In this document: positions 31,233 through 42,774 of the stretch, piece by piece | Layout: the number at the start of each line of letters is the position of its first letter | How positions within the stretch are numbered: position 1 is the stretch's first letter | Source of the DNA: Desulfobacula sp. | GTDB lineage: Bacteria > Desulfobacterota > Desulfobacteria > Desulfobacterales > Desulfobacteraceae | Length of the DNA stretch: 43,899 bases | Assembly: GCF_030611305.1 (NCBI RefSeq) | Contig: NZ_JAUWQB010000025.1 | Coordinates: 1-43,899, forward strand | Direction: 5' to 3' | Made by a program: the position numbers and the translations under genes | Notes under the pieces: model-generated | What the model was told of the DNA's origin: nothing | Seen by the model: the letters and a program-made list of their open reading frames with translations, nothing else | Databases searched by the model: none

Positions 31233-32165
31233 TCAAAGGACCGGTCTTGGCAGTACTTTTGCCCTTTCGGCAATTTCAGGGACCCTGTGCTCCCATTCAA
31301 TAGCCATCATGTGAACGCCTGCCACCCCTTCCATTTCCTTGAATTCTTCAACCTGTTCCAGGGCAAAACGTATGCCCTCTTCTGCCTGGTCTTTTTTATC
31401 CACGCTTTTGAGGCGTTTAATCAGGGAATCAGGGATGTCCATACCGGGTACAAATCTTGACATAAAATTTGCCATGCCGGCATTTTTCATGGGAGTAACC
31501 CCTGCCAGAATATAACACTTTTCATGGAGGCCCATGTCCACGGCCTTTTTCATAAAGTCCCGGAACTTTTCCATGTTAAAGATACACTGGGTCTGGATAA
31601 AATCCGCGCCAGCCGTGATTTTATTGGCAAGCCTGTACACCCTGTATTCATACGGGTCGGCAAACGGGTTGCAGGCAGCGCCGATAAACATTTTTGGCGG
31701 CACATCAATATCTTCGTCATTCATGAATTTTCCCTCATCCCGCATCTTCTTTACCAGTGCGATGAGCTGCATGGAATCGATATCATGAACGTTTTTAGCT
31801 TCCGGATGGTTCCCAAAGGTCTGATGATCACCGGAAAGACATAGCATGTTCCGGATGCCTAGGGCATAGGCGCCTAAGATATCGCTCATGATGGCCAGAC
31901 GGTTCCGGTCCCGGCAGACCATCTGGAAATTGGGTTCAAGCCCTTCTTCAATCATCAGGACCGATCCGGCAAGGGAAGACATTCTGACCACCGCGGTCTG
32001 GTTATCGGTCATATTTACGGCATCCACATTGCCCTTGAGATATTGAAATTTTTCTTTCAAATGCGTGACATTGGCACCCTTTGGGGGTCCGCATTCTCCT
32101 GTAAATGCGAAATGTCCGGCTTTCAGAACCTTTTCAAGATTACTGCCTGATTTGAGTTCACTCAT
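31233..32165 (-). CDS. metF: Methylenetetrahydrofolate reductase, catalytic subunit
   Basis: A 310-residue TIM-barrel flavoprotein of the MTHFR family. It interconverts methylene- and methyl-tetrahydrofolate in the methyl branch of the acetyl-CoA pathway. GECGPP holds the proton-donor glutamate, LSGDH the flavin-contacting aspartate, and IQTQCIFN the folate-binding glutamine. It is the last gene of the Hdr operon, 21 bases after metV. The MetF-MetV-Hdr-MvhD grouping is known from the Moorella-type methylene-tetrahydrofolate reductase complex, where the Hdr part links the reductase to other electron carriers. Confidence 0.93.
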   Translation of the reverse strand: MSELKSGSNLEKVLKAGHFAFTGECGPPKGANVTHLKEKFQYLKGNVDAVNMTDNQTAVVRMSSLAGSVLMIEEGLEPNFQMVCRDRNRLAIMSDILGAYALGIRNMLCLSGDHQTFGNHPEAKNVHDIDSMQLIALVKKMRDEGKFMNDEDIDVPPKMFIGAACNPFADPYEYRVYRLANKITAGADFIQTQCIFNMEKFRDFMKKAVDMGLHEKCYILAGVTPMKNAGMANFMSRFVPGMDIPDSLIKRLKSVDKKDQAEEGIRFALEQVEEFKEMEGVAGVHMMAIEWEHRVPEIAERAKVLPRPVL

Positions 32166-32186: not shown

Positions 32187-32864
32187 TTATATATTTCCCT
32201 GAACCAGTTCTTCCCTGATACTTCTTCTGGGACCGCCGTCTCTTGCCGTTCTCCAGTTTTTTATACCCCTCACACCGATCAGGTCTTCCAGCTTTCCCGC
32301 GTCCATTTTCTTTCTGACAATCACATCCCAGATACAGACCGTGTCTTTATTTATTTCGCAAGCCCCATTGGATGATCCCCCGCAGGGGCCGTTCATGAGA
32401 CTTTTCGCACATCTGGCAATGGGACACAGGCCACCGAAATTATTGATGGCACATGTACCACAGCCGGCACACCGTTCTTCCCAGACCCCGTGTTGAGTGG
32501 CACCGCCAAAAAAGGTGGTATTGACGCCTGGATAAAATGTCTGGTCGGGATACATTTCAGATAAAAACTGTGGACCTACACCACAGGCAAGAGAGATCAC
32601 TGCATCATAGTTACCTATTATATCACTGACTCCAGCCACATATTCATTGTCACATTGTCTTTCCAGAACATTAATATCAATGTCAATGTGAGTGCCTTGT
32701 TTTTTTCTGGCAATTTTCATTGAAGATGCCAGTATCTCAACTTCCTTTAACCCGCCGACATTGCAGACAGTAACGCACCCCTTGCATCCGGCGATGAGAA
32801 TCTTTTTATTATCTTTTACCATCGTCAATATCTCTTCAAGAGATTTCCGATCTGCTACTATCAT
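32187..32864 (-). CDS. metV: MTHFR C-terminal domain protein, iron-sulfur/zinc subunit
   Basis: A 225-residue cysteine-rich protein. N-terminal GCKGCVTVC (Cys27, 30, 34) and the C-terminal ERCAGCGTCAINNFGGLCPIARCAKSLMNGPCGG cluster are typical of MetV, which binds Fe-S clusters and pairs with MetF to pass electrons to its flavin. The fit in both length and motif order is good. It lies 33 bases after mvhD and 21 before metF. Confidence 0.9.
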   Translation of the reverse strand: MIVADRKSLEEILTMVKDNKKILIAGCKGCVTVCNVGGLKEVEILASSMKIARKKQGTHIDIDINVLERQCDNEYVAGVSDIIGNYDAVISLACGVGPQFLSEMYPDQTFYPGVNTTFFGGATQHGVWEERCAGCGTCAINNFGGLCPIARCAKSLMNGPCGGSSNGACEINKDTVCIWDVIVRKKMDAGKLEDLIGVRGIKNWRTARDGGPRRSIREELVQGNI

Positions 32865-32897: not shown

Positions 32898-33323
32898 TCA
32901 CGCCGCATGAGTGCTCTTAACCGGAGTGGGTCCCAACTCCCTGATTTTGCCCACCATCTCACTGGCAATCTCGGCAAACCGTGCCCCCTGTGCTGAAGAA
33001 AGATTATACATTTCCACCCTTTCGGGCTCAATACCCAGTTCTGTCAGGGTTTTTTTTACGTACTCCACCTTTCTTCTGGCCTTAAGATTACCTTCTATGT
33101 AATGACACTCGCCTTCAAGGCATCCGGCCACGTATACACCGTCCGCTCCATCTTCAATGGCATTGAGCAAATGAAGGATATCCACCCTTCCCGTACATGG
33201 CACCTGGATAACTTTTATGTCAGCAGGATAGGATAGTCTCATGGAACCTGCCAGGTCCCCGGCTGCATACGCTCAGTACTGACAGCAAAATGCGATTATC
33301 CTGGGTTCAAATTCTTGGGTCAT
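32898..33323 (-). CDS. mvhD: MvhD-type electron-transfer subunit with selenocysteine
   Basis: A 141-residue protein if TGA at 33273-33275 is read as selenocysteine (residue 17). The translation around it is IIAFCCQY-U-AYAAGDLAGSMRLSYP. MvhD/FrhD-type proteins have FxCxxC(S/A)YAxADLAG here, so U replaces a conserved cysteine in a cluster-binding motif. Downstream CTGRVD and GCLEGECHYIEGN are typical of MvhD. The ATG at 33323 has GGAGG 6 bases upstream. Without recoding, no start with a ribosome-binding site exists after the TGA. The subunit should bind a [2Fe-2S] cluster and carry electrons to HdrA. Confidence 0.85.
33243..33259 (-). promoter_or_regulatory. bSECIS-like hairpin for mvhD
   Basis: A 6-bp stem (GGGACC with GGUUCC, one G-U pair) closes a UGGCA loop. 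The loop begins 19 bases after the last base of UGA, in the range seen for bacterial selenocysteine insertion elements, and has a G in its first two positions as they require. It lies in the coding sequence. Confidence 0.65.
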
Positions 33324-33354
33324 CATTAACCTCCGTTTTTGGGGTCACTTTTTT

Positions 33355-37887: not shown

Positions 37888-39174
37888 TTATAGTCCCACT
37901 TCAGCCAGATCCGGCCCAAGATAGGTTCGTTCCGTGTCAGCAAGCACACCCATGGCAAGAGTAATGATTGTCCATAGGTGAACTACATGATAATTGCCGC
38001 CATAATGTTCGCCAATATCTTCAATCTGGCCGTGACAATTATGACAGGGTGCGATCACATAATTTGCACCGGTTACCGCAAGCTGGTTGAATTTTGTTCT
38101 GCCATAGGCCCTTCTCTGATCGGGAAATCCTGCCTGCAAAGCACCGCCACCGCCGCCGCAGCAATAGTTGTTATCCCGGTTGGGGACAGTATCAATAAAA
38201 TTTTCTTCACCCACAACGGTTTTAATAACAAATCTTAAATCATCTACAATCTTATTGGACCCGCTTTTTCTTCCGATATTGCAGGGATCCTGCACTGTAA
38301 ACTTGGCTTTGATATCTTTATTCCAATCAGAATTGACCTTGAGCTTGCCTTCTTTAATCCACTGGGCATACAGCTCAATGATGGTGACAAGTTCGAATTT
38401 GTGAGGTATCTTGAATTTGCGCAATCCTTCCAGGATCGCAAAGTATGAATGCCCTCACTCGGTATTGACCACAACGGGGCTTTTTAAATTATTGTCCACA
38501 TGGTGAACAAACTCCTCTATAATATATTTCCATCCCTCATTATCAGCCATGAACATGCAGTAGTTTTCTCCGGCCCACATTACTGAGGGGTAAGTCCAGT
38601 CCGCACCCACTGTGTGAAGAATTTTCCATAAAGGACCCATTTCTTCAGGCTCGGTCACAGGTTCTCTGGAGTTCTGGTTCAATACCATTGTGGCACCAAC
38701 CCTGTCCACTGAGACCTGTAACTCCTCAAATCCCGGATGATCTTCCCGGATCTCCTCGGCCACATCCAGTACCGTGAATTCGAAATCATCCTTTGCGGCT
38801 CCCATGGCACTGCCGGTTCTGATATGCTGATCACATGAGCCAAGGATACCTTTAGGACGTTTCTCCCTGGGAACGTTTGCACGCAGATTAAAAATTAGTG
38901 CCGGCACATTAATTTTCATGGGGCAGGCTGACACACAACGTGCGCACATACTGCAAACCCATTTCCAGTCGGTTTTCAGCACTTCATCATCCATCCCTAA
39001 GTTCAGCATTCTAATGAGCTTTCTGGGATCCATGCCAAACTGTTCTGATGCGGGACATCCACCCGTGCAGGTCCCGCATGTCAGACAAAGATCAAAGTTC
39101 GCATCCGGCACCTTCGATAGAACCTCATCTTTAAACTCAATGTCAAGTTCATCAATCTTAATCGCCTCTGCCAT
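37888..39174 (-). CDS. hdrD: HdrC-HdrB fusion (HdrD-like) Fe-S protein with selenocysteine
   Basis: 428 residues if TGA at 38455-38457 is read as selenocysteine (residue 240). The N-terminal half has two [4Fe-4S] motifs, CLTCGTCTGGCP (Cys30-40) and CSMCARCVSACP (Cys74-84), as in HdrC. The C-terminal half has an HdrB-type cysteine-rich domain: Cys298, CCG at 338-340, Cys377 and Cys380. Around the TGA it reads VVNTE-U-GHSYFAI, where the family usually has ECGHxY. The frame continues unbroken on both sides with only this stop. It should carry the noncubane cluster site of an Hdr-like complex. It is 14 bases after the MetF paralogue and 15 before hdrA. Confidence 0.85.
38421..38439 (-). promoter_or_regulatory. 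bSECIS-like hairpin for the HdrC-HdrB fusion gene
   Basis: A 7-bp stem (GCGAUCC with GGAUUGC, one G-U pair) closes a UGGAA loop. The loop begins 22 bases after UGA. The loop and its closing CC/GG pairs match those of the mvhD hairpin almost exactly, although the surrounding codons are unrelated. Confidence 0.65.
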
Positions 39175-39188
39175 TTTAAAATTCTCCC

Positions 39189-40067
39189 TTATCTTAATTT
39201 GGCTGCATTCAGATACTGCACCAGATTATCGACACCGCCGATGGTAATAATATGAACCCCCTGACAGATATCTTTCAGACTGTTTACAGTATCGGCAAAA
39301 AGCTCCATGCTTGCCTTTTTTTTGTTAGGTGCTTTCATCAGATTCTGGATAACCCACTCAGGTACAAGTCCGGATTTGAAATGGCGGTTCAAAAATTTCC
39401 CCATCCCTGCTGTTCTCAAAATCATGACTTCAGCAATGACAGGGACTTTAAAAGGTTCAACCTGCTTCATGAATCTGGCAAACTGATCAACATCAAAAAT
39501 GGGCGTCGTTAAAAAATACCCCGTACCCACATTCATCATGTCTTCCATTTCTTCCATGCCACGTTTTGGCATGTTTTTCCCCCAGGGTGTTTCAATGCCG
39601 GAGCCCAATACAAAATCAATCTTGTTGTCAAGCTCTTTTCCTTCAATTGTAACCCCTTGTTTCAAGTGATCCATAACCGATCCCAATTTTCCTGAATCAA
39701 CATGGAAGAACATTGACTCCTGGAGTGTATCTCCTGCAATCCTGTAGTCTTCCGTAAATACCAAAAGATTTTCAACACCGGTCTCATGGGCAATTGTCAG
39801 ATCCTTTTGCAGCTGGAATCTATTTTTATCTCTTGTAGTGGTTTGATAAATCGCATTCAAATTGTTCTCTTTTAAAAGGCCACAGGCTTTGATGGTGTCA
39901 CTCACAACTCCTTCAAGTTCTATTTCTGAAACAGATACGCCGTCCACACGGCCTTTTACCCTGTTAAGGCTATCAATAATAACCTCGGGTTCTTCATCAC
40001 CGAGGGGAACCTGTAGTTCGGACGTCACAACAAATCTCTTTTTTTCCAAAGATTCCTTTAAATTCAT
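39189..40067 (-). CDS. Methylenetetrahydrofolate reductase paralogue
   Basis: A 292-residue MTHFR-fold protein, divergent from the MetF at 31233. The N-terminal glutamate (TSELQVP) is kept and an aspartate is present at the expected flavin site (FTEDY). The folate-binding glutamine is not: IQTQCIF of MetF is LTTPIF here. It has no MetV-type extension. It is the second gene of the operon, 14 bases after the regulator and 14 before the HdrC-HdrB fusion. It may be a second catalytic or a docking subunit acting on another pterin. Confidence 0.8.
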   Translation of the reverse strand: MNLKESLEKKRFVVTSELQVPLGDEEPEVIIDSLNRVKGRVDGVSVSEIELEGVVSDTIKACGLLKENNLNAIYQTTTRDKNRFQLQKDLTIAHETGVENLLVFTEDYRIAGDTLQESMFFHVDSGKLGSVMDHLKQGVTIEGKELDNKIDFVLGSGIETPWGKNMPKRGMEEMEDMMNVGTGYFLTTPIFDVDQFARFMKQVEPFKVPVIAEVMILRTAGMGKFLNRHFKSGLVPEWVIQNLMKAPNKKKASMELFADTVNSLKDICQGVHIITIGGVDNLVQYLNAAKLR

Positions 40068-40081
40068 GATCTGCCTCCTTT

Positions 40082-40654
40082 TTATTTTAATCCGAGTAAT
40101 TTGGCCACTTCATCCTTAAGCTTTTGCAGGGGCAATGGCTTTGAAAAACAAACATCCGCACCGTTCTCTTTCATCTGCGCGAATTTATCATCATCCAGGT
40201 ATGCAGATAATACGATAATCTTAGTGTCTTTTGTTTTCTCGTTGTTCTTAATTTTTTTACAGACTTCATACCCTTTGATATCAGGCATCATAATGTCAAG
40301 AATCAAAAGGTCGGGATGAAAATGATTCACCTGAAGTCCGGCTTCGAAACCATCCGAGGCGGAAAGAACCTCATAATCAAATTCATCTTCCTCCAGAGCC
40401 TGTACAATTGACTCGACAATGATCATGTCATCGTCTACGACCAGAATCTTTTTTCTGGCGCCTTCATCTTTCTCTTCAGGAATAGGGATTCCCTGGCTTC
40501 TCATAAAAGTTTCAAGATCAGATTTTTTTATCCTGCGATGTCCGCCAACGGTTCGATACGCTTTAATGTGTCCAGCTTCCACCCAATTTATAATGGTTTT
40601 AGATGAAACATTACAGTATTTGCTTGCGGTAAATACGGTCAACGTGTCTTCCAT
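40082..40654 (-). CDS. Response regulator with N-terminal MerR/excisionase-like HTH
   Basis: A 190-residue protein with an uncommon domain order. Residues 5-52 are a helix-turn-helix of the MerR/excisionase type (TASKYCNVSSKTIINWVEAGHIKAYRTVGGHRRIKKSDLETF). A linker follows to about residue 66, then a receiver domain at 68-190 with VVDDD, phospho-acceptor Asp120 (LILDIMMPD), the LSAY threonine/serine position and the SKPLP lysine. Most response regulators have the receiver first. It is the first gene of the Hdr-Met operon (14-base gap) and lies 300 bases downstream of a histidine kinase on the same strand. Its promoter has AT-rich palindromes it may bind. AGGAGGAGG precedes the ATG. Confidence 0.88.
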   Translation of the reverse strand: MEDTLTVFTASKYCNVSSKTIINWVEAGHIKAYRTVGGHRRIKKSDLETFMRSQGIPIPEEKDEGARKKILVVDDDMIIVESIVQALEEDEFDYEVLSASDGFEAGLQVNHFHPDLLILDIMMPDIKGYEVCKKIKNNEKTKDTKIIVLSAYLDDDKFAQMKENGADVCFSKPLPLQKLKDEVAKLLGLK

Positions 40655-40950: not shown

Positions 40951-42774
40951 TTATTCACAGGCTATGGGAAGCATGATACCGAATTTTGTCCATTGTCCTT
41001 CTTCGGATTCAACTATAATATCCCCACCATGGTCTTTAATAAAACCATAACAGACAGAAAGCCCAAGCCCCACTCCCTGAACACTCTCTTTTTTGGTGGT
41101 AAAAAAAGAATCAAAAATCTTTTTCATATGCTCGGGTTTTATACCCATTCCCGTATCCTTGATAATGATAAAAAGTTTTTTGGAAACAACCTTAGTGGAT
41201 ATCTCAAGGTTGCCGCCATCCGGCATGGCATACATGGCATTGGAAAACATATTAATAAATACCTGACGCAATTGATCCCTGGATGCCAGAATGACTCCCG
41301 GGTTCTCAACAAGATCCATACTTAGTTTTATACTGTTTTCCCTGAACCGTTTTTCATATAACATTATCAGCTCATCAATGACCACGTTAATGTCTATCTC
41401 TATGCGTTTGTCCTGATCCGGTTTTGAGAAAGACAGCATTTTTTTCAGCATGTCTGCCAGCCGTTCAATCTCAGACAAAGACATATCCAAAAGCCTTCGC
41501 CTCTTGTTTTGAGGAGAAATCTCGGTTTTCATCAATTCAAGGGTATTCATTATACCAAACAGGGGGTTGTTGAGTTCGTGTGCGATCTGGGAAGTAAGCC
41601 TGCCCATGGCAGCCAGCTTTTCTGACTGGAGCAGATGTTGTCTTGCTTCGCCAAGTTCTCGTTCTGTTTGAAGCTGCTCCTTTAAATCGACAAATAATCC
41701 AACCGTTGCCAGTTCATCGCCTTTTTCATCATAAAGGATGCTGGCAGAAAGATTGCCTTCAACCAGCTCACCATTATCCTTTTTAAAATTTAATAGATAA
41801 GAGTTCAGCCTGCCCCTGCCCCCGAACTTTTCATCTCTCATCATTTCCATGACATTATTGGCCACCTTATTTGAAAAAATCTGCTGGATGCTCATTTTTC
41901 CGATGACTTGTTCGGACTCATACCCGAAGATATCTTCAGCGCTCTGGTTCCACAATTTGACAATGCCCCTCATATCCATTGCCATAATGGCATTGGGAGA
42001 ACATGAAATAATTTGATCCAAAAAATCATGGGCTTCTTTTATTTGGTTTTCACTTTTTTTTCTTCGGGTCTGATCTACAACAATCCCTTCATAACCAAGG
42101 ATCACCCCTTTGGGATCATACCGGACATTACTGGTTAAAAGGATATGAAGTATATGCCCGTCCCGTCTTCTCCACCTTACTTCATAATCAACGACCCGAC
42201 CTTTTTTTTCTATAATTTCAGTGTACTTACGCCTGTCATCGGGACTTAAATAAACATCTCTTGCAAGATCAAGCGAAAGGAATTCTTCCTTATCCTGATA
42301 CCCAAGCATCTTTAACAACGTAGGATTAACATCTAAAAACCGACCTTTTTTACTGCTGACAAACACCCCGCATCCAGCATGCGTAAAAAGCCTTTGATAG
42401 CTTGCTTTAGAGGCTTTTAGTTTCTCCTCCTGTAGTACGTTGTGAGTGATATCACGGTATACGGAAAGTTTTGATTTGGTTCCGTCCTGATTGATCACCG
42501 GAAGCTCTGACAGAACAAATATTTTATCAAGGGATTCAATATAGACCTCACTGTGATGTGTTTCATTATTAATAAAAACCTCATCATATTTACACCAGTC
42601 GCAAGGGGCATCAGATCCGATCAATACTTCATGACATTTCTTCCCGACCCCTTCGCCAAACAGTTCTTTCATGAATTTATTCATATATTCAACGGTATAA
42701 TTCTCGTTGATAATATAAATACCATCTTCAAAAACATCCAGCGCATCCAAGAGCTTCGGAGTGTGATCAGCCAT
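40951..42774 (-). CDS. PAS-domain sensor histidine kinase
   Basis: A 607-residue soluble kinase with no membrane segments. Three PAS domains lie at about 10-112, 122-240 and 250-370; the first has cysteines in the segment DAPCDWCKYD, possibly for metal or redox sensing. The phospho-acceptor is His399 (IAHELNNPL), followed by the dimerisation helices, then an HATPase domain with INMFSNAMYAM (N box), DTGMGIKPEHMKKIFDSFFTTK (G1/F boxes) and GVGLGLSV (G2). It lies directly upstream of the HTH-receiver gene on the same strand and is its probable partner. Confidence 0.92.
   Translation of the reverse strand: MADHTPKLLDALDVFEDGIYIINENYTVEYMNKFMKELFGEGVGKKCHEVLIGSDAPCDWCKYDEVFINNETHHSEVYIESLDKIFVLSELPVINQDGTKSKLSVYRDITHNVLQEEKLKASKASYQRLFTHAGCGVFVSSKKGRFLDVNPTLLKMLGYQDKEEFLSLDLARDVYLSPDDRRKYTEIIEKKGRVVDYEVRWRRRDGHILHILLTSNVRYDPKGVILGYEGIVVDQTRRKKSENQIKEAHDFLDQIISCSPNAIMAMDMRGIVKLWNQSAEDIFGYESEQVIGKMSIQQIFSNKVANNVMEMMRDEKFGGRGRLNSYLLNFKKDNGELVEGNLSASILYDEKGDELATVGLFVDLKEQLQTERELGEARQHLLQSEKLAAMGRLTSQIAHELNNPLFGIMNTLELMKTEISPQNKRRRLLDMSLSEIERLADMLKKMLSFSKPDQDKRIEIDINVVIDELIMLYEKRFRENSIKLSMDLVENPGVILASRDQLRQVFINMFSNAMYAMPDGGNLEISTKVVSKKLFIIIKDTGMGIKPEHMKKIFDSFFTTKKESVQGVGLGLSVCYGFIKDHGGDIIVESEEGQWTKFGIMLPIACE

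Follow-up and report, generated by a model that had tools for sequence, protein, structure and literature searches.

Within a 43,899-nt stretch of Desulfobacula sp. DNA (hereafter the window; contig G000:C154 of a 3.57 Mb assembly), two apparent genes lie end to end on the minus strand, raising the question of whether they encode two proteins or one protein interrupted by a recoded stop, and, if the latter, in which complex that protein serves. Under translation table 11 the locus yields open reading frames of 239 and 178 amino acids, the second starting from a TTG eleven codons past a TGA codon. Read from 39174 to 37888, however, the same DNA forms a single frame with one internal stop, a TGA at 38457-38455 that occupies residue 240 in the context VVNTE-U-GHSYFAI. 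A sequence-only reading had proposed, without giving a strand, that the 178- and 239-residue frames are one continuous frame with one TGA, and this is borne out on the minus strand. It had further described the TGA as splitting an HdrC-HdrB fusion; the fused frame stands, but the TGA lies inside the HdrB-like part, in the first CCG half-domain, and not at the HdrC/HdrB boundary. Among named records, Desulfobacula and Desulfobacterales assemblies come closest, with 95-96% protein identity. The features of this locus, hereafter HdrCB, are as follows:

37888..39174, minus strand: HdrCB-like gene, almost certainly for a selenoprotein, of 428 codons plus a TAA stop, with an HdrC-like dicluster ferredoxin (residues ~26-104) and CCG half-domains (residues ~155-410)
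38455..38457, minus strand: in-frame UGA, assigned as Sec240 of a U-G-H motif from the frame and from comparison with homologues
38449..38451, minus strand: His242, invariant in 125 of 125 genes and aligned with His583 of EtfD, a noncubane-cluster ligand
38421..38439, minus strand: predicted bacterial SECIS stem-loop (7-bp stem; 5-nt loop UGGAA, with GG), spanning codons 246-252
38422..38424, minus strand: TTG codon 251, where the apparent second frame would begin, within the 3' strand of the SECIS stem

Homologues carry the same interruption at the same place. When 116 related genomes were searched with stops read through, exactly one internal stop, always TGA, was present in all 47 matches listed at 72% identity or more, a set in which the window and a partial match (G009) are counted; the next match down among those listed, at 69% identity (G096), has no internal stop and carries Cys at column 240. 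A phylum-wide draw of 297 genomes, with five candidates scored per genome, gave a match at E 1e-100 or better in 38 genomes, and the 54 such matches comprised 41 with one TGA and 13 that were stop-free. Neither TAA nor TAG was found inside the homologues, whether among the matches listed for the 116 related genomes or among the 54 from the phylum. Column 240 reads TGA in 92, TGC in 29 and TGT in 4 of 125 distinct homologous genes, a Sec/Cys ratio of 92:33 that does not represent a frequency, as Cys genes were fetched on purpose (20 regions were picked as stop-free). Although the filter for this set admitted only U or C at column 240, no full row had any other letter there, and two truncated genes end short of the column. 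The flanking residues are nearly fixed, with E239 and H242 invariant in all 125 genes and G241 kept in 123 (Ala in two Cys rows), and the isolate Desulfospira joergensenii (L065) carries the same UGA. The earlier suggestion that the UGA stands where the family has the Cys of an ECGH motif agrees with the 33 TGC/TGT homologues; three distant paralogues of the same genome (L090, L091 and L092) also contain ECGH, with Cys at this residue.

Downstream of the UGA, after 15 nt, positions 38439-38433 pair with 38427-38421 to form the stem of the predicted SECIS. In 25 diverse Sec sequences chosen out of 65, 94.9% of pair cells were standard and 17 double-sided changes were seen, the exceptions being pair 22-34, broken in 2 of the 25, and the outermost pair, broken in 7. 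The covariation score was 0.329 against a shuffle mean of 0.205, with none of 500 shuffles as high, and shifting the partner arm by 1-3 columns destroyed the signal. The same columns paired in 57.9% of cells in 20 of 22 Cys homologues, no better than shuffles. Because the stem was derived from the tested sequences themselves and the shuffles ignore kinship, we added a separate test of synonymous constraint, using 51 distinct orthologues from 81 loci. Codons 245-251 had a synonymous diversity of 0.164, whereas codons for these amino acids in the remainder of the gene predict 0.541, and none of 20,000 resamples was as low. Ranked by constraint, the top seven of 246 seven-codon windows each overlap the hairpin. 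Upstream codons 229-239 were slightly constrained (P 0.04), downstream codons 257-270 were ordinary, and codon 251 was TTG in 50 of the 51 orthologues. By folding energy alone the 43-nt segment stood out only mildly (z -1.71, with 12 of 200 shuffles folding as well), and Rfam at its gathering threshold returned no match within the window. As judged from these alignments, the SECIS is a covarying element in Sec genes that is not kept in the Cys genes tested.

The genome also encodes the machinery for selenocysteine insertion: SelA (600 bits), SelB (349 bits), SelD (370 bits, with one in-frame TGA) and a tRNA-Sec (76.5 bits, anticodon tca). The SelD gene (L214, G000:C34:24450-25373, minus strand) looks like a selenoprotein itself. 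Because the UGA column has Cys alternates, a SECIS lies downstream and the Sec machinery is present, UGA240 almost certainly encodes selenocysteine, and the two apparent genes are, with the same near-certainty, one 428-residue selenoprotein.

Other explanations of the interrupted frame fare poorly against these data. If an HdrC-like protein ended at the UGA and an HdrB-like one started at TTG251, as the table-11 frames of 239 and 178 residues would suggest, codons 241-250 would go untranslated, yet these hold H242 (125/125) and G241 (123/125), Cys homologues included; moreover, the supposed start codon sits in the SECIS stem, and 33 homologues read straight through with Cys, making two separate proteins exceedingly improbable. 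A sequencing error, a pseudogene or a UGA read as another residue such as Trp might be suspected from the fact that nearly all named relatives are metagenome assemblies, but the UGA recurs in 92 distinct genes, including that of the D. joergensenii isolate, homologues without UGA carry Cys, and both a SECIS and the Sec machinery are present, so that we give this explanation hardly any credence either. The selenoprotein assignment of the sequence-only reading is therefore strongly supported by the UGA/Cys column, the SECIS, the synonymous constraint and the Sec machinery together.

What kind of protein does the full frame encode? Pfam places a dicluster ferredoxin at residues 28-88 and one CCG domain at 293-384, and all 15 NCBIfam matches fall below their cut-offs. 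The highest are HmcF (174 bits, cut-off 750), TmcB (170, cut-off 735) and DsrK (113, cut-off 400), followed by the HdrC model TIGR03290 (64, cut-off 160); the HdrB model TIGR03288 reaches 30.9 bits against a cut-off of 345. The eight Cys of the two cubane motifs are invariant where rows cover them, and the noncubane motif formed by C298, C338, C339, C377 and C380 is complete in 125 of 125 genes. In the first half-domain of HdrCB the CC pair is absent and residue 240 is kept. By its motifs, HdrCB keeps one of HdrB's two noncubane-cluster sites and so is closer to HmcF, TmcB and EtfD than to HdrB. The 'HdrC-HdrB fusion' of the earlier reading accordingly holds as an architecture, an HdrC-like dicluster ferredoxin joined to CCG domains; it does not extend to membership of HdrB, because only one of the two noncubane motifs is kept, and the NCBIfam scores are below cut-off. 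Two of the distant paralogues in the genome belong to the best-matching families, L090 being TmcB (824 bits against 735) and L092 HmcF (926 against 750), whereas L091 passes no cut-off. TmcB and HmcF of this genome share with HdrCB the ECGH motif and one complete CCG motif, but HdrCB itself is far below the cut-offs of these families, L090-L092 have Cys where it has Sec, and the likeness to DsrK is one of NCBIfam score.

Structural comparison suggests a place for residue 240. An AlphaFold2 model of HdrCB with Cys in place of Sec, built from 39 rows, had a mean pLDDT of 86.3, with the blocks around residue 240 above 90. Its modelled strand 234-237 and helix 241-253 resemble the strand 372-375 and helix 378-391 around C377, so that in the model residue 240 appears to be to the first half what C377 is to the second. 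The best PDB fold was EtfD of Mycobacterium smegmatis (9ojn; E 1.1e-9; query TM 0.71; 16% identity), with HdrB chains next. In a 17-row profile alignment, ECGH falls on the CPHC of EtfD, counted as C581-P-H583-C584, placing C240 and H242 on C581 and H583 and the U-G-H-S of the window on the CxHC of EtfD. According to the accessible part of the EtfD report (PMC13083937), C503, C538, C581 and C584 ligate a linear [3Fe-4S] cluster (D1), and the noncubane cluster is held by C637, C672, C673, C709 and C712 together with His583, a first-half His that closes the second-half noncubane cluster. Because H242 is aligned to His583, it very probably closes the noncubane cluster of HdrCB. EtfD differs in being membrane-bound, in having the linear D1 cluster and in carrying Cys at the aligned residue. 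Across the 125 genes, position 243, which aligns to C584 of EtfD, varies among S, E, M, V, A, I and D, and an invariant T194 lies near EtfD C538 by ungapped upstream extrapolation of the alignment; HdrCB thus seems to lack the other D1 ligands. On EtfD homology at ~16% identity, it is likely that Sec240 lies beside the noncubane cluster. A two-cluster HdrB mechanism of heterodisulfide reduction is unlikely for HdrCB because one noncubane site has been lost.

Other cysteines were seen outside the cluster motifs. C114 is present in 124 of 125 genes and C206 in 123, with one gap in each case, which makes both nearly invariant; C206 does not occur in TmcB, HmcF or L091, and is a possible partner of Sec240. 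An extra Cys at column 232 of the first half-domain is present in 77 of the 125 genes and not in the window.

The neighbouring genes suggest a function. HdrCB is the second of six genes that run along the minus strand in the order MetF-like, HdrCB, long HdrA, MvhD, MetV and MetF, with possible regulators upstream:

40951-42774, minus strand: PAS histidine kinase, upstream of the operon
40082-40654, minus strand: fusion of an HTH_17/MerR domain with a response-regulator receiver, upstream of the operon
39189..40067, minus strand: divergent MetF-like gene directly upstream of HdrCB, 64 bits to PF02219
33409..37872, minus strand: long HdrA of 1487 aa with a GltD-like NAD(P)H/FAD insert, flavin and ferredoxin domains, and Cys, not Sec, in NDCSMC
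32898..33326, minus strand: MvhD/FlpD, by domain match and in-frame UGA the second putative selenoprotein of the cluster, with CCQYU
33273..33275, minus strand: in-frame UGA of MvhD, from the frame
33243..33259, minus strand: hairpin after the MvhD UGA, a candidate SECIS, whose core GGACCUGGCAGGUUC recurs with few changes in the Sec-MvhD relatives compared
32187..32864, minus strand: MetV (MTHFR C-terminal, DUF5981), by domain match
31233..32165, minus strand: MetF (methylene-THF reductase), by domain match

The HTH_17/MerR-receiver fusion and the PAS histidine kinase are a possible regulator pair. In the 40 orthologous loci, defined by at least 64% identity and a scored MvhD, a MetF-like gene lies upstream of HdrCB in 38 and MetV downstream in 37; contig edges account for the missing genes except in L115, where neither MetV nor MetF was seen within 3.4 kb after MvhD. 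Genes for HdrA, HdrB/C, MvhD, MetV and MetF thus stand together in one cluster, the arrangement of the Hdr-type methylene-THF reductase (MetVF-HdrCBA-MvhD) of Moorella and Sporomusa. In the part of PMC9430772 available, the enzyme proposed for Moorella has a 1487-aa HdrA with GltD, and Sporomusa pulldowns gave contacts among MetVF, HdrA, HdrB and MvhD, while the Hdr proteins of Sporomusa did not copurify with MetVF. With the same gene set, an HdrA of the size and layout found in Moorella, and the Sporomusa pulldowns as grounds, HdrCB is probably a subunit of an Hdr-type methylene-THF reductase. The window differs from the described enzyme in its fused HdrC and HdrB, the loss of one noncubane site, predicted Sec in both HdrCB and MvhD, and an extra MetF-like gene. 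That extra gene is conserved in the orthologous operons, and the same part of PMC9430772 names one MetF for the Hdr-type enzyme. Elsewhere among the loci, the nearest HdrA has Sec in DCxMU in L073, L076, L075, L179, L180 and L211; the HdrA of the window has Cys.

The main alternative accepts the selenoprotein but detaches it from methylene-THF: HdrCB would feed another partner, such as the disulfide of DsrC or a membrane quinone module, and MetFV would be a mere neighbour. It draws on UGH paralogues that have no MetFV nearby, on the ECGH shared with the genome's TmcB and HmcF, and on members of the same family beside FrhD, FrhG and FrhA, as described in the portion of PMC1794560 consulted. The genome itself holds two further UGH paralogues at 57-59% identity (L087/L193, G000:C110; L088/L194, G000:C139), and neither MetFV nor MvhD was found near them in the stretches examined, so that Sec in this family is not tied to the methylene-THF reductase. 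Against the alternative, the MetF-like gene and MetV accompany HdrCB in 38 and 37 of the 40 orthologous loci, and the size and domains of HdrA match the Moorella enzyme (PMC9430772, again as far as the part available describes it). On balance we regard a function apart from methylene-THF as rather unlikely, though deserving of more weight than the two explanations of the frame dismissed above. A Cys paralogue (53% identity) lies next to an HdrA in the same genome (L089/L195, G000:C129), and locus L178 holds an additional UGH frame (PEUGHAY) that is more remote, at 38% identity, and falls outside the 48% identity filter.

Retaining the Hdr-type reductase as the preferred reading, we consider in which direction it would run. 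Relatives oxidise acetyl-CoA by a reverse Wood-Ljungdahl route, as stated in the available parts of PMC2702500 and PMC8318568, and for that reason the cluster probably runs in the direction of methyl-THF oxidation.

That another subunit of the same complex carries selenium had been proposed from sequence, and MvhD, encoded in this cluster with a UGA at 33275-33273 in CCQYU, supports the proposal, although the folding energy of its hairpin segment is not unusual (z +1.03). The further proposal that the two subunits were tuned together can be examined by pairing their states. With MvhD scored as the nearest copy on the same strand within 8 kb, and HdrCB rows filtered at 48% identity, 85 of the 125 genes were scorable, giving HdrCB/MvhD states of U/U in 44, C/C in 23, U/C in 17 and C/U in 1. 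Within the MvhD type of the window (CCxxC) the counts are U/U 44, U/C 2 (L115, L208), C/U 1 (L104) and C/C 2 (L141, L175); the other type contributes U/C 15 and C/C 21, so 15 of the 17 U/C rows reflect another MvhD subfamily. Most U/C rows thus differ from the window in MvhD subfamily, and direct exchange of Sec within the CCxxC type rests on few rows. Furthermore, 38 of the 44 U/U rows form one orthologous operon clade. Among these rows the association of Sec in HdrCB and MvhD is strong within the CCxxC type but dominated by kinship.

The tree comprised 97 rows, 28 of the 125 having been dropped to thin the closest clade, and was built with the trait residue masked; on it the state changed at least 9 times in HdrCB and at least 6 times in MvhD. 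Five independent pairs differing in HdrCB were available, in which MvhD differed the same way 1.3 times, the opposite way 0.5 times and not at all 3.1 times on average; no joint change beyond kinship appears on the tree, and five pairs are too few for significance. L104 (HdrCB Cys, MvhD Sec) and L115 (HdrCB Sec, MvhD Cys) are drawn as sisters (SH-aLRT 94, below the level that the tool marks with a star), and because these sisters hold swapped states, the joint occurrence of predicted Sec in the two subunits, though common, is not obligatory. Joint tuning consequently finds no support, which is not a disproof: kinship and MvhD subfamily explain most rows, no joint change is seen on the tree, L104 and L115 are opposite, and only five pairs were available. 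The notion that at least one Sec is always kept was also rejected, as C/C rows with MetV nearby exist (L143, L181).

How might the selenol take part in electron transfer? Electrons would be exchanged among NAD(P)H at the flavins of HdrA (by bifurcation or confurcation), an MvhD-associated partner, the pair of cubane clusters in the HdrC portion and the single noncubane [4Fe-4S] cluster (C298, C338, C339, C377 and C380, closed by H242), and onward to or from MetV/MetF. Sec240 would occupy the site of C581, the EtfD Cys that binds the second (D1) cluster, and, with the remaining D1 ligands apparently absent, would probably be a free selenol(ate) adjoining the noncubane cluster, at the point of electron transfer to the partner. 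There it could act as a fast redox or proton-coupled gate, or as an exchangeable ligand. This exact chemical role is tentative; the broader explanation, a selenoprotein that serves as electron-transfer subunit of an Hdr-type methylene-THF reductase cluster, we hold with reasonable confidence. A bolder version is frankly speculative and, we think, improbable: Sec240 would be a direct or exchangeable Se ligand or partner of the noncubane cluster, replacing the lost second cluster and making the Hdr-type reductase bidirectional, and lineages would shift Se between HdrCB and MvhD without needing both.

The UGH family itself is already known, and HdrCB is a well-supported further member. The portion of PMC1794560 consulted described, in 2006, GlpC-type Fe-S oxidoreductase selenoproteins, an operon with Sec-HdrA and Sec-FrhD, and the presence of several Sec-containing subunits within one operon of this kind; a 2026 review lists the family with the motif UGH (PMC13188914, in the part available; also PMC9312934, likewise). 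HdrCB, assigned by motif to this family, whose published representative is WP_174406253.1, has the UGA in U-G-H and the downstream SECIS in a genome with Sec machinery. It shares with the GlpC UGH selenoprotein (PTHR43551) the motif, the Fe-S oxidoreductase type, occurrence in Deltaproteobacteria and a place beside Sec-FrhD/MvhD (available parts of PMC13188914 and PMC1794560). The operon given in those parts of PMC1794560 is glpC-hdrA-frhD-frhG-frhA, with Sec-HdrA and hydrogenase genes, whereas the window has a Cys-type, GltD-fused HdrA, and its six-gene cluster, which includes MetF-like, MetV and MetF, contains neither hydrogenase subunit, large or small. Similar by description is HdrD4 of Desulfobacterium autotrophicum HRM2, a Sec HdrD with HdrC and HdrB domains in a marine sulfate reducer with several mvhD and hdrL (PMC2702500, in the part available), and a genome marginally related to Desulfobacula has a Sec 'Fe-S oxidoreductase' and heterodisulfide reductase (PMC8318568, likewise). 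In the literature searched, HRM2 Table S3 and the PMC8318568 supplement aside, we found no UGH selenoprotein in a MetFV cluster, and we make no claim of absence. What is added here is the context of a cluster that resembles an Hdr-type methylene-THF reductase, and a testable structural reading of UGH.

Collectively, these results indicate that the standard code cuts HdrCB and its relatives into two wrong pieces, leaving a subunit of a probable complex of central carbon oxidation in marine sulfate reducers open to misreading. The swapped Sec and Cys states of L104 and L115 are naturally occurring variants with which the benefit of selenium could be probed subunit by subunit, and the mapping onto EtfD makes the UGH motif a testable position, at which a selenol would lie next to a noncubane iron-sulfur cluster.
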